From: Candidatus Cloacimonadota bacterium
GTDB lineage: Bacteria; Cloacimonadota; Cloacimonadia; JGIOTU-2
Reading direction: 5' to 3'
DNA length: 50,867 nt
NCBI GenBank assembly: GCA_030613025.1
Contig: JAUWMT010000017.1
Span: 1 to 50,867 of the forward strand
The position numbers and the translations under genes were made by a program. Every line of letters begins with the position of its first letter. Within the stretch, counting starts at the first letter, position 1. The notes under the pieces are model-generated. The model did no database searches, was not told where the DNA came from, and saw nothing but the letters and a program-made list of their open reading frames with translations. Shown here piece after piece: positions 1,210-28,461 of this stretch.

Positions 1210-3681
1210 ATGAAGAAAATCATAGTAATTTTTATCCTGACTTGCATTGCATTTACTCTTAATGCAGAAGTTTTGAAAGATACAGAGATCGAGCTGATGG
1301 AAACGCTTCTTCAGCAAAACGATATGTCTCTTCAATCTTTGAATTTTTTGAAAGACTGGGCGAGGGATACGAAATTCAAGCTTCCGATTGTCGTAGAGAT
1401 TCTCAATAATCCGCTCCAATTCCCAAAATTTGTGGATCAAACTGAAGCTCTTTGCGAGGAGCATGATCCGTCTGAAATGATCTGCGAGTATGCAGATATC
1501 CTGTTTCAGGCAAAATGGATCGACTCTTTTGATGAAACCGTTTTTAAAGAATATTTCTCTCAAAACGTAAAAACTTCGAAGGATATTTTCAGATATGTCG
1601 AATATGTGTGGGAATTTGTAGATCATTTTTATCAGAAAGCATGGCAGCAATTATCTCAGGAAGATAAAGATATGCTTCAGTATCTCTCTTATTCACTCTG
1701 GGAGGAATCGGAAGATTCACTTCGTTACGATGAGTTTTATCAACTCCAAGGAATAACTGTGTATGACACTCTGAGCATTGAAGACGATGTAATTCCTGTC
1801 ATTGAAAAAATTGATTTTGCTTCATTGATGTATGCGGCAAATATCTCACAAAAGGGCTTTGATATACTTCAACAGAATTTGCCGCTCATTGGTTTTCGGA
1901 ATGATAAAAAATTGATACAGGATTCTCATTTTGGTTTGATGTGTATTGGCAGCCCCCGGGCGGACAGATATGATAAACAATTTTCTTTTATTCTTGATCC
2001 TTCCGGAAATGATATGTATGCAGCTCCGATAAAGACCGACTGGGAGCATCCTTTTTACTGGATTGTCGATATGCAGGGAGATGACACCTATCGGAATGAT
2101 ATGATCGGAAATCTGTTCCACGTTTTTGCAGGCATAGGAATTTTCTGTGATATGATGGGTGATGATGTGTATGCGGGAGATGACTACACACTTAGTTCTT
2201 TTTTGGGCTATCTTCTTGCCTATGATATGGATGGAAATGATATTTATAATGGTGGCTTGAACAGCATAGCAGCAGCGACCTTCGGCTTGAATCTGCTTAT
2301 TGATGAAAAGGGTTGTGATCACTATTCCACAACTGAGCTTGGAGAAGGATTTGCAGGTCCGCTCGCAGCAGGATTTCTCATTGATACTGATGGAAGCGAT
2401 ATGTATTATGCAGGCGGGAAGTATCTGCACGTTCCCCTTGCACCATTTGATCATCGGGCGCTATCGCAGGGCTTCGGTTTTGGGGTACGCCCTTATCTTG
2501 GAGGTGGCATAGGAGTGCTGTATGACGAAACAGGAAATGATGTCTACCAGGGAGGTGTGTACAGTCAGGCGGTGGCGTATTGGTATGCACTTGGCATCAT
2601 CATAGATAAAACGGGCAACGATTTTTATATTGCGGTGTATTATCCGCAGGGAAGCGGCATCCATCTTGCAGGCGGATTTCTGTATGATGAAGAGGGCGAG
2701 GATCATTACTATTCGAAGCACGGACCGGGTCAGGGAGCAGCACACGATTATGCGGTTGGGTACCTGATCGACAGAAAAGGAAATGATATTTATTCAGTTG
2801 AAGGTGGGAACGGATTGGGATTGACTAATTCCGTTGCTTTTTTTCTCGATGCTTCCGGAAATGACAGATACGAAAGGAATGTTTCCAGCAACTACGGCTA
2901 TGCTAATACTGCTCGAAATACCGGAAGTATAGGCATTTTCCTTGATACCGGAGGAACGGATATATACCCAATTTCGTCAGACACAAGCGGGTATCATGAA
3001 AAATATAAGAATGATACGAAGTGGTCTTACGGCACTTATGGCGTTGGATGGGATACGCTCATGATTTTCGAGGAGAAACCTGCGATGGAAGAGAAAGCAG
3101 AGGAAGATGCTGCAACGGTGGATTCCCTTGCTTCAATAAAAGAGATATTCTCCATTGCTTCGGAATGGGGCGTGGGAAGCAGCACGAAACGGGTGGCAAA
3201 AGCTGCTGAAATTCTGTTGAAAAGAGATGCTGAATCATCGGAATATATCTTCGAGAACAAGCTTGATACAAAAGGTTCGCTGGAATACAGGGCAATATTG
3301 AATTTTGCAAAAAAATCTGCCGAGTTTGGCTTATATCTTCCACGTGCTCTTGCCAATGAGGATAGTATTGTTGTGAAGAATGCACTCGCACTGATCGGAG
3401 AAATTCGAGATTCGAGTCTTATCGATACTCTGTCACTAATGCTGGATCAGAAAAAGTATGTGCCCAGTGTACTTTCTTCCCTTGGAAAAATGAAAACGGA
3501 CAGTGCAGTTCAGCTCCTTGAGAATTACATGAACTCACCTTCGGAGCGTATAAGGGTTATTGTTGCACGAGGATTTCTGCTCACAGATACACCACGAAGT
3601 ATAGACCTTCTCCAGCAGATGAAGGATGACTCCTCCTTTTTGATCAGGACGATGTATAAGTTAAAGAATAGCAAATTATAA
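1210..3681 (+). CDS. exported D-x-x-G-x-D-x-Y repeat protein with HEAT-like C-terminus
   Basis: An 823-residue protein with a Sec signal peptide (residues 1 to about 19, cleavage after LNA). Residues 20-250 are mostly helical and acidic. Residues 261-586 carry twelve copies of a ten-residue motif, hydrophobic-x-D-x-x-G-x-D-x-Y, for example ILDPSGNDMY, AYDMDGNDIY and LIDRKGNDIY. Starts are near 261, 285, 312, 337, 363, 390, 437, 464, 491, 519, 546 and 577. The spacing of about 27 residues suggests a beta-solenoid or stacked hairpins, and the Asp/Asn-Gly clusters could bind calcium (inference). Residues 640-823 look like HEAT-type helical repeats. No lipobox or T9SS domain is visible, so it is probably periplasmic or secreted. 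Function unknown. Confidence 0.8.
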   Translation: MKKIIVIFILTCIAFTLNAEVLKDTEIELMETLLQQNDMSLQSLNFLKDWARDTKFKLPIVVEILNNPLQFPKFVDQTEALCEEHDPSEMICEYADILFQAKWIDSFDETVFKEYFSQNVKTSKDIFRYVEYVWEFVDHFYQKAWQQLSQEDKDMLQYLSYSLWEESEDSLRYDEFYQLQGITVYDTLSIEDDVIPVIEKIDFASLMYAANISQKGFDILQQNLPLIGFRNDKKLIQDSHFGLMCIGSPRADRYDKQFSFILDPSGNDMYAAPIKTDWEHPFYWIVDMQGDDTYRNDMIGNLFHVFAGIGIFCDMMGDDVYAGDDYTLSSFLGYLLAYDMDGNDIYNGGLNSIAAATFGLNLLIDEKGCDHYSTTELGEGFAGPLAAGFLIDTDGSDMYYAGGKYLHVPLAPFDHRALSQGFGFGVRPYLGGGIGVLYDETGNDVYQGGVYSQAVAYWYALGIIIDKTGNDFYIAVYYPQGSGIHLAGGFLYDEEGEDHYYSKHGPGQGAAHDYAVGYLIDRKGNDIYSVEGGNGLGLTNSVAFFLDASGNDRYERNVSSNYGYANTARNTGSIGIFLDTGGTDIYPISSDTSGYHEKYKNDTKWSYGTYGVGWDTLMIFEEKPAMEEKAEEDAATVDSLASIKEIFSIASEWGVGSSTKRVAKAAEILLKRDAESSEYIFENKLDTKGSLEYRAILNFAKKSAEFGLYLPRALANEDSIVVKNALALIGEIRDSSLIDTLSLMLDQKKYVPSVLSSLGKMKTDSAVQLLENYMNSPSERIRVIVARGFLLTDTPRSIDLLQQMKDDSSFLIRTMYKLKNSKL

Positions 3682-20628: not shown

Positions 20629-21840
20629 TTAAATCCCGATCAGCTTTTCACGAACTCTTGCACTGACCATATCCATTACCCAGACAACGAACGCGATGAG
20701 CCATATCAACAAGCCGACATTATGCCAGCGGAGGAGCTGCTGCTGTTGAAGAAGGAGCAGACCGATACCGCCGCCACCTACAAAACCGACGATCGTTGCC
20801 ATACGGACATTGATGTCCCAGCGGTAAATAGTAAATGCCAGGAAAGGTGAGACTATCTGCGGAATGACCGCGTAAATCCAGGTTTGAAGAGTGCTCGCAC
20901 CGGTTGCTTTTATCGCTTCAACCGGACCGGTATCAATATTCTCGATCTGTTCGGAATAAAGCTTCGTAAGTGCTGCAACTGAATGGACCATAAGCGCCAG
21001 CATTCCCGCGAAAGGACCGATACCGACCCACACACTGAAAATGATCGCCCACACGATTGCCTCGATAGAGCGGAAAATAGTTGCGATCGTTCGTATAACG
21101 AGATACACTATATTCCCGAGCCATGTTCGCGGCATCAAATTTCTTGCTGCAAAGAAGCTGAGCACAAAGGCAAATGGGATAGCAAATACCGTTGCCAGCA
21201 GCGCCAGGAAGATGGTCTCGGCAAGGGCGGAAAGGGCTATATTGAGAAGCTTGGTATTCTTTTCAGCACTCTTTAATATAGTTGATTTGTATTCTTGTAA
21301 GGTCGATTCGCCAAGTCTTTTTTGAAGGTCATTAAGAAAAACTTTCCTGGTTGAATATTTCCTGTTCTGAATTCCCTTAAGTGTATTGATAACATCCGGA
21401 GGCAGGTCATCTTTCTCCAATTCATTGATGGATTCAGCGGAGAGAGAGTATCCCGTTACACTCGGATCAAAAATACCAGACGCTATGCCGCCTGCATTCT
21501 GGAATTTGGTGAAAAATTTATAAAAGTCAACCTCTACAATATTCAAGCCAACCACAAAAGTGACGACCAGTGATAGAAGGATAAGATAGCCCCACAAAGA
21601 TTTGAGCACACTTCTTTTCGGCTTTCCGGAAGATAAAAATAATTTTACTCCAATAGATCCTCGAATGAGCTGAAAGATGATCGTGGCGAGAAGTGCTGCA
21701 ATTCCAATAAAGGTTAACTTTGCAGTAAAGCCGGTCCACTTATGCATAAGATAATACAGGCAACCGAAGATATATATCCAGAAAAGAAGGTCGGTGGCGA
21801 TTGCTTGAATAAATTCTAATGTTCTATTTTTTTTCTTCAT
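20629..21840 (-). CDS. phnE: phosphonate-type ABC transporter permease PhnE
   Basis: A 403-residue inner-membrane permease, longer than typical PhnE because of an N-terminal stretch with two to three membrane helices and a soluble segment (about 115-190). The permease core follows: FRSIEAIVWAIIFSVWVG, the EAA loop EAIKATGASTLQTWIYAVIP contacting the ATPase, and FVGGGGIGLLL. It overlaps phnC by 4 bp (ATGA). With PhnC and PhnD it forms an importer for phosphonate, phosphite or phosphate. No C-P lyase genes are present nearby. Confidence 0.93.
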   Translation of the reverse strand: MKKKNRTLEFIQAIATDLLFWIYIFGCLYYLMHKWTGFTAKLTFIGIAALLATIIFQLIRGSIGVKLFLSSGKPKRSVLKSLWGYLILLSLVVTFVVGLNIVEVDFYKFFTKFQNAGGIASGIFDPSVTGYSLSAESINELEKDDLPPDVINTLKGIQNRKYSTRKVFLNDLQKRLGESTLQEYKSTILKSAEKNTKLLNIALSALAETIFLALLATVFAIPFAFVLSFFAARNLMPRTWLGNIVYLVIRTIATIFRSIEAIVWAIIFSVWVGIGPFAGMLALMVHSVAALTKLYSEQIENIDTGPVEAIKATGASTLQTWIYAVIPQIVSPFLAFTIYRWDINVRMATIVGFVGGGGIGLLLLQQQQLLRWHNVGLLIWLIAFVVWVMDMVSARVREKLIGI

Positions 21841-22604
21841 CTTATTTCAACCTCCTCCGCGTCTTCTCCGTAAATATCTTTGAATTTTTGTTCGTCGATT
21901 TCTTTTGGCGTACCGTCAAAAACAATATTTCCATCTTTCAGGGCGACAACCCGTGTGCCGTATTTTCTGGCAAGACTGAGAAAATGAAGAGAACAGAGAA
22001 TTGTGATGTTGTCATTTTTATTGAGTTCACCCAGGTATCTCATTACGGAATCTGCAGTTGCCGGATCCAGACTGGCGACAGGTTCGTCCGCAAAGATAAC
22101 TCGTGGATTCTGCATAAGTGCTCTTGCGATTGCCACACGCTGCTGCTGTCCGCCACTCAGGTTTCTGGCTTTGTTCTTTGCAAACTGTTCCAGCCCGACG
22201 CGCTGCAGGTTACTCATTGCAATGGCTACATCGTTTTTGTGCATGGAAAAGGTGACTGAATGCCAGAGTGAGACATAGCCAAGCTTTCCGGAAAGTACAT
22301 TTGTCAGGGCGCTCAGGTTTTTGAGAAGATTGAACTGCTGAAATATCATGCCGATGTGGCGACGGATCTTACGAAGCCGTTTTCCTTTTGCAGTAATGAC
22401 ATTTTCTTCATCGATCTCAATTTCTCCTGAGGTAGGTTCAATAAGCCGGTTCATACATCTGAGGAGTGTGGATTTGCCGGATCCCGAAAGACCGAGAAGA
22501 ATAAGGAATTCCCCCTCTTTTACTTCAAGATTGACACCCTTAAGTGCATGGGTACCTCCCTCGTAGATCTTATGTAAGTCGGTAAGTTTTATTATATTTT
22601 TCAT
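21837..22604 (-). CDS. phnC: phosphonate-type ABC transporter ATP-binding protein PhnC
   Basis: A 255-residue ATPase. Walker A is [15 protein letters not shown] near residue 38, the Q-loop MIFQQFNLL is near 86, the signature [15 protein letters not shown] is near 149, and Walker [14 protein letters not shown] is near 169, followed by the switch His in SLHFL. The QRVGLEQFA-type linker and RTLxxLxGxxLxxW-like LGYVSLWHS segment are typical of PhnC. It has 4-bp overlaps with phnD upstream and phnE downstream, indicating one transcript. Confidence 0.95.
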
Positions 22605-27353: not shown

Positions 27354-28461
27354 TCAATTATTCAATGATTTATTTTTTAAAAAAGCATCGATGAATTGGT
27401 CAATATTTCCGTCCATGACAGCTTGAACATTTCCTGTTTGCTCATCGGTACGATGGTCTTTGACCATTGAGTATGGCTGAAAAACGTAGGAACGGATCTG
27501 GTTGCCCCACTCGATACTTTTTTTCTCGTTTTCAATTTTTTGGCGCTTTTTATCCTGCTCTTCTTTATACATTTGATAAAGACGGGATTTGAGAACCTTC
27601 ATTGCATTATCTTTATTATTGAGCTGCGATCGCTCGGACTGACATTGTGCCACAATACCTGTGGGAATATGTGTAATACGAACTGCGCTGCTCACCTTGT
27701 TGACATGTTGTCCACCTGCTCCACTCGCGCGAAATGTGTCAATTCTTAGATCATTTTCATTTATTTCAATTTCTATCGTATCGTCAGCTTCCGGATATAC
27801 AAATACAGAAGCAAAAGAAGTGTGCCTTCGCTTATTGGCATCAAAAGGAGAGATGCGGACAAGCCGATGAACACCGATCTCCGATTTTAAATAACCATAG
27901 GCATATTTGCCTTTTATCTCCAAAGTTGCGGAACTGATGCCGGCAACGTCTCCGGGTTGCTTATCCATAAGCTCAACTTGAAAATTCTGGTTTTCTGCCC
28001 AGCGAACATACATTCGAAGAAGCATCTCTGCCCAATCATGGGATTCTGTTCCACCGGCTCCGGGATGAATCTCCAGAATGGCATTCTTTTTATCGTATGG
28101 GTCACTGAGAATCAGTTGTGTTTCTAATTTATCGAGGAAATTTTTGGTTTGTGCCAGTTTTCTCTCTGCCTCTGCTTCTAATTCTAAATCTTTTTCTTCC
28201 TGCAGAATGTCAAGGAAAGCTTCAAGTTCTTCCTGAGATTGTGTTATCTTCTCCGAAGTTTCAATATCTTCTCTCAGACTGCTCAGGTTTTCTGATATTT
28301 TTCGTGCACGCTCCTGATCATTCCAAAAATCAGGGCTGCTCATTTCTTTTTCGAGCTGGGATATCTTTGCGTTTTTGGTCTCTACGTCAAAGATACCTCC
28401 GCAATTCAAGTATTTTTCCTTTTAGATTTTCAACGTCTTTTGCGAATACATTTACATCCAT
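27354..28461 (-). CDS. prfB: peptide chain release factor 2, programmed +1 frameshift
   Basis: RF2 recognises UGA and UAA stop codons. The reading frame starts at the ATG at 28461, runs 24 codons to CTT (28392-28390), meets an in-frame TGA (28389-28387) and continues in the +1 frame from GAC (28388). The full product is about 368 residues. The conserved parts are clear: SPF tripeptide in RISPFDANKRRH, and the GGQ catalytic loop in RASGAGGQHVNKV. The slippery CTT TGA C is preceded by GGAGG, which acts as an internal Shine-Dalgarno, so synthesis is autoregulated by RF2 levels. The frame without the shift would begin at a poor TTG at 28409. Confidence 0.96.
28382..28398 (-). promoter_or_regulatory. 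prfB programmed frameshift site
   Basis: Reading on the minus strand the site is GCGGAGG TAT CTT TGA C. GGAGG is the internal Shine-Dalgarno-like stimulator, CTT the slippery codon and TGA C the poor termination context, as in the known bacterial prfB site. Confidence 0.93.

Follow-up and report, generated by a model that had tools for sequence, protein, structure and literature searches.

Organization of the gene and its protein product

The window, i.e., the whole stretch of 50,867 nucleotides of Candidatus Cloacimonadota DNA analyzed here, encodes near its beginning (positions 1210–3681, forward strand) a predicted exported protein of 823 amino acids, which has single-copy, full-length orthologues in the Cloacimonadota. 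All features of this gene are given below in window positions on the forward strand. From the N- to the C-terminus, the protein comprises a putative signal peptide, a helical N-terminal domain, a predicted solenoid of twelve coils and a tail of HEAT repeats. The signal-peptide-like segment (residues 1–19, MKKIIVIFILTCIAFTLNA; 1210–1266) was recognized from its sequence, and a hydrophobic N-terminus is retained in the orthologues, in keeping with the export proposed in the initial annotation. No lipobox was recognized within these 19 residues. The adjoining alpha-helical domain (residues 20–239; 1267–1926) was delimited by its conservation and by helices in a low-confidence AlphaFold model. It contains a conserved L..V...L.NPL..P stretch and a near-invariant P68, and it accompanies the solenoid domain across the family.

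The C-terminal HEAT-repeat domain (residues 631–819; 3100–3666) was identified by the presence of HEAT_2 in orthologues, by matches to designed alphaRep proteins and by the AlphaFold model. In the present protein the HEAT_2 match (26.0 bits, E 1.1e-5) falls just below the Pfam cut-off of 27.7 bits, while 22 of the 23 orthologues are matched. The tail is also the only part of the full-length model that was predicted with confidence (pLDDT about 80 over most of its length), and it is helical; the HEAT-like repeats of the initial annotation are thus borne out. The likeness to HEAT_2 and alphaRep is limited to the C-terminal 190 residues, and many members of the domain family lack the tail altogether, as does the form of about 645 residues at L094. 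Some members thus have HEAT repeats behind the solenoid domain, and others end with it. In one further locus (L070:3016-5541), HEAT-like repeats, as read from the sequence, apparently precede the solenoid instead of following it. In longer proteins from other phyla (L089 and L090; L081; L086 and L088) the partners include an N-terminal PQQ-type propeller, a PDZ domain and a right-handed beta-helix, and in some members a true right-handed helix of PF13229 adjoins the twelve-coil domain.

No NCBIfam model of a T9SS sorting domain matched the 823-residue protein, whose C-terminus consists of the HEAT repeats, as the initial annotation had stated. The same annotation had placed such tails elsewhere in the window, a remark that could not be confirmed since none was found among the 18 other open reading frames scanned. 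On the reverse strand, opposite the repeats, there is an open frame of 202 amino acids (1846–2454), in all likelihood the shadow that the repeated codons cast on this strand.

The twelve-unit domain

The central domain (residues 240–618; 1927–3063), defined by family alignment, profile search and covariation, contains exactly twelve matches to the motif D-x-x-G-x-D-x-Y, located between residues 263 and 586, and the twelvefold count of the initial annotation is therefore exact. When residues 250–620 were shuffled 20,000 times, between zero and two matches were obtained, and never more. The first six units carry the motifs DPSGNDMY (residues 263–270; 1996–2019), DMQGDDTY (287–294; 2068–2091), DMMGDDVY (314–321; 2149–2172), DMDGNDIY (339–346; 2224–2247), DEKGCDHY (365–372; 2302–2325) and DTDGSDMY (392–399; 2383–2406). 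They are followed by DETGNDVY (439–446; 2524–2547), DKTGNDFY (466–473; 2605–2628), DEEGEDHY (493–500; 2686–2709), DRKGNDIY (521–528; 2770–2793), DASGNDRY (547–554; 2848–2871) and DTGGTDIY (579–586; 2944–2967) in units 7 to 12. Successive motifs are 24–28 residues apart, with two exceptions: a spacing of 47 behind unit 6 and one of 32 behind unit 11. In the family alignment, the solenoid is closed by a C-terminal cap, W605..G..G.G.D615 (3022–3054).

The twelve motifs stay in register across the 45 diverged proteins, which derive from Cloacimonadota and other phyla, and 32 of these contain exactly twelve matches. At every unit, the two aspartates and the glycine of the motif are conserved in 84–100% of the sequences, and the wide spacing behind unit 6 recurs throughout the family. 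The domain is about 375 residues long (range 343–405), and matches in genomes typically span the whole of the 373-position domain model. The constant count and the coverage of the entire domain by the matches led us to reject an open-ended array in favour of a fixed, in-register domain of twelve units.

Nothing significant was detected for residues 240–618 in Pfam, NCBIfam, PHROGs, PADLOC or PDB sequences, and a profile built from the family, in response to the check proposed in the initial annotation, likewise matched no described family or PDB chain. The earlier failure to assign the repeat to a named family therefore holds, and the domain is undescribed in the sense that it has no relative in these five collections; in kind, as a predicted beta-solenoid, it would be ordinary. 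The Beta_helix and pectate lyase models were also unmatched in the Pfam and PDB sequence searches, the domain gave no PADLOC match to anti-phage defence systems, and no paper on the motif was found. Plasmid, phage and viral collections held no relative of the domain, the only match being to the HEAT repeats, which indicates that it is not a gene of the mobile elements in those sets.

Evidence for the fold was sought in covariation, calculated as mutual information between neighbouring units, with column effects corrected, for 94 domain sequences below 70% identity. The signal peaks at the same position within the two units (mean of 1.55, versus −0.19 where the two positions differ by more than three; p 4e-10), although phylogeny among these related sequences is corrected only in part. 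Counted from the first aspartate, positions −4, −2 and −6 are among those that covary most strongly, i.e., the alternating pattern of a strand. When the calculation was repeated with a new random seed, the same-position effect was 1.30, 0.45, 0.21 and 0.10 for units one, two, three and four apart, respectively, and the effect between adjacent units was still significant with the 36 sequences below 50% identity. Homogenization of the units was rejected as a cause, since the signal decays with unit distance. Such covariation is what a parallel, in-register beta-solenoid predicts, and parallel stacking of coils as in beta-helix or pectin-lyase-like proteins is consistent with it; similarity among units alone does not predict it.

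Structure prediction was less informative. The AlphaFold models showed about two strands per unit at low confidence (pLDDT of 45 for the full-length protein and 52 for coils 7–12), and they were poor because only seven close sequences were used. Fold searches yielded no significant match (best E 0.39, with the model of pLDDT 52); the nearest folds, all insignificant (E ≥ 0.39), were solenoids such as the CAP C-terminal domain, pectate lyases, ice-binding proteins and RTX rolls, including RTX block V. At most, the models hint at agreement with a solenoid. The regular solenoid of the initial annotation is consequently upheld by the covariation between units, while the weak models add little to it.

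Distribution and genomic context

Public relatives of the protein at 70–90% identity were found in metagenome-assembled genomes of Candidatus Cloacimonadota and Celaenobacter. A match was present in 109 of the 125 Cloacimonadota genomes (67 of the 71 of good quality), mostly as one full-length copy. Profile searching brought up strong matches outside the phylum as well. When 387 genomes were searched with a profile of the domain only (threshold E ≤ 1e-20), 150 were matched, namely 105 of the 125 Cloacimonadota and 45 of the 262 from other phyla, the latter 45 being spread over 37 families according to the profile-search table. In one other phylum the domain was detected in 16 of the 17 genomes searched, frequently with two or three copies per genome, and in a further phylum in all four. 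When 45 domains were placed in a tree, the Cloacimonadota fell into one group with their closest HEAT-tailed counterparts from other phyla (support 99/95), an old HEAT-tailed lineage. The domain is thus near-universal and single-copy in one uncultured phylum; at least two other phyla carry it in all or nearly all genomes searched, and it reaches 37 families beyond the Cloacimonadota. Such a wide distribution argues for an important role outside the cytoplasm, and an alignment of the family, of which 165 domain sequences were gathered, would allow annotators to label many proteins now listed as hypothetical.

The same genome encodes a second twelve-coil domain on contig 60 (37631–41029; L009:5632-9030), in a protein of 1133 amino acids with a HEAT and TPR-like tail. 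Close relatives of this paralogue were seen only within the genus, in most of the genomes searched. Genes resembling HD-GYP and TPR/cyclase signalling genes, named by eye, lie near it.

Within its own genus, the gene of the window is accompanied by a Cof-type HAD phosphatase-like gene and a BirA-like gene, both recognized by eye from their sequences. In one other Cloacimonadota family (L043-L052), it lies directly upstream of rsmG, parA and parB, a chromosome-partition cluster, an adjacency absent from the other families compared. The neighbourhood is not conserved beyond the genus or family and no operon was found; since the neighbours differ between families, gene context is uninformative on function. 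No catalytic domain or link to a substrate was found either.

Conserved residues and possible functions

The strongest constraint in the protein lies in residues 401–576 (2410–2937), a putative active or ligand site identified by codon differences and conservation. In comparison with six congeners, its codons differ by only 6–18 nonsynonymous as opposed to 49–77 synonymous changes, a mark of strong purifying selection. A conserved insertion of about 20 residues between coils 6 and 7 (within 400–431; 2407–2502), reflected in the 47-residue spacing that is common in the family, carries Q420-G421 and R427; Q420 and R427 are conserved in 96% and 98% of the 94 non-redundant sequences. Outside the motif and the glycines, only Q420, R427, Q453, Y457, Y478, H485 and D513 reach a conservation of 93% or more, followed at 84–91% by W458, H512, N540, R569, W605, Q480 and Q508. 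Three of these residues occupy one position, eight residues before the first aspartate of the next coil: W458 (2581–2583; 84 of 94 sequences), H485 in the next coil (2662–2664; 93 of 94) and D513 in the coil after that (2746–2748; 93 of 94), the last directly preceded by H512 (79 of 94). Coils 7, 8 and 9 thus have Trp, His and Asp here, respectively, and the remaining coils show variation; position −13 forms a ladder of glutamines. In a parallel solenoid, residues at the same position of consecutive coils would stack, an arrangement typical of one catalytic or ligand-binding site, which we infer here. The conserved His and Asp could also have a structural role.

The 45 domains are all acidic, with a mean net charge of −30 (range −46 to −20) and about 40 aspartates. 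Stacked ladders of aspartates need to be neutralized. The G-(N/D)-D turn of the present domain resembles, in miniature, the calcium turn of the RTX beta-roll, for which PMC3034196 gives the consensus X-(L/I/F)-X-G-G-X-G-(N/D)-D and the calcium geometry. RTX rolls bind calcium between successive turns through conserved aspartates, and the Asp ladder and charge of the present domain are suggestive of a similar arrangement. These two considerations make calcium binding plausible, and a cation is plausibly held by the Asp turns, as the initial annotation had guessed. The fixed count of twelve coils, the central site, and the status as a core gene of the phylum with a wider spread had escaped that annotation.

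We somewhat favour the view, based on comparison of sequences, that the product is an exported solenoid of twelve coils with one conserved ligand-binding or catalytic site. The protein would leave the cytoplasm by the Sec route, with the periplasm as its probable destination, and its twelve D-x-x-G-x-D-x-Y units would form the coils of a fixed parallel beta-solenoid. Each D-x-x-G-[N/D]-D would make a tight turn, with cations stapling the stacked Asp ladder; in an extracytoplasmic setting these would most likely be Ca2+. A single site on one face of coils 6–11 would bind or chemically alter one specific ligand; its members would be Q420 and R427 of the inserted loop, Q453-Y457-W458, Y478-Q480-H485, Q508-H512-D513 and N540 from consecutive coils, and R569 and W605. 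The helical N-terminal domain and the HEAT tail would dock partners. Exported parallel solenoids with clusters of His, Asp, Arg and aromatic residues commonly act on sugars, and an envelope or environmental glycan is therefore the first choice of ligand, proposed by analogy and with clearly less confidence than the solenoid and its site. With coils stacked in parallel and a site to which successive coils contribute residues, the proteins would resemble right-handed parallel beta-helix enzymes of the pectate lyase type (PF13229); they differ in their strict D-x-x-G-x-D-x-Y repeat, which the beta-helix enzymes are not known to have, and in being unmatched by Beta_helix models.

The same conservation might instead reflect the packing of a long regular fold, the domain being a calcium-stapled rigid spacer or surface binder with no catalytic site. 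The dominance of Gly, Asp and Tyr ladders, the acidic character of the domain and its fusion to scaffold or binding modules (HEAT, PDZ, PQQ propeller and beta-helix) would all suit such a structural or adhesive role, which we nevertheless consider rather unlikely: conservation is not spread over the whole repeat but peaks in coils 6–11, on His, Asp, Arg, Trp and Tyr residues that do not recur from coil to coil, and a spacer would be expected to vary in its number of coils, whereas here twelve are fixed. An arrangement of one antiparallel beta-hairpin per unit, as in a YD/RHS-like shell or another hairpin repeat, appears very improbable. YD repeats also bear a D-x-x-G turn, and the weak models contain two strands per unit, but no hairpin covariation was seen within units among the 94 sequences, the same-position signal between units is strong, and none of the 45 domains matched the RHS models at E values up to 10.

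Descent from an RTX beta-roll was considered as well, D-x-x-G-[N/D]-D-x-Y then representing the RTX turn G-G-x-G-[N/D]-D-x-[L/I/F], present once per 27-residue coil. Both have a Gly-(Asn/Asp)-Asp turn that leads into a strand bearing a bulky hydrophobic residue, in agreement with the RTX consensus (PMC3034196), and both are Asp-rich and acidic; a place outside the cytoplasm and parallel stacking of coils, as predicted for the present domain, would be further shared features. The serralysin C-terminal (RTX-like) model weakly matched 3 of the 45 domains (best E 0.0011; the present protein was not among them), and RTX block V appeared among the insignificant fold matches. On the other hand, the Pfam RTX repeat model matched none of the 45 at E values up to 10, a result to be read in light of the HMMER filters, which drop most very weak matches. 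The RTX roll uses two nonapeptides (GGxG(N/D)DxUx) per coil, with a period of 9, in contrast to one turn per 26–27 residues in the present domain, where Asp-x replaces the first two glycines and Tyr the Leu/Ile/Phe. Unlike RTX proteins, moreover, the family has a fixed count of twelve coils, a conserved putative site and a probable Sec-type signal peptide, which speaks somewhat against type I secretion by a C-terminal signal. A diverged RTX roll thus seems distinctly improbable, though less so than the hairpin repeat.

If the favoured solenoid with its single site is carried further, the family may constitute a new class of exported enzymes, in which twelve calcium-stapled coils present a Trp-His-Asp ladder and an Arg as the active site, core to the Cloacimonadota and several other phyla and directed at a shared substrate. 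This proposal is tentative and we hold it to be rather doubtful; if true, the enzyme would act on an envelope or environmental polymer common to these phyla. In any event, the near-invariant residues offer a short list for mutation and a starting point for a ligand hunt, in place of the label "unknown repeat protein".

Two other loci on the reverse strand of the window may be recorded. Genes similar to phnC and phnE of a phosphonate ABC transporter (NCBIfam equivalog matches) are located at 20629–22604, and the open frame of prfB (release factor 2; 27354–28409) lacks the usual N-terminal codons at its start, possibly owing to the classical programmed frameshift.
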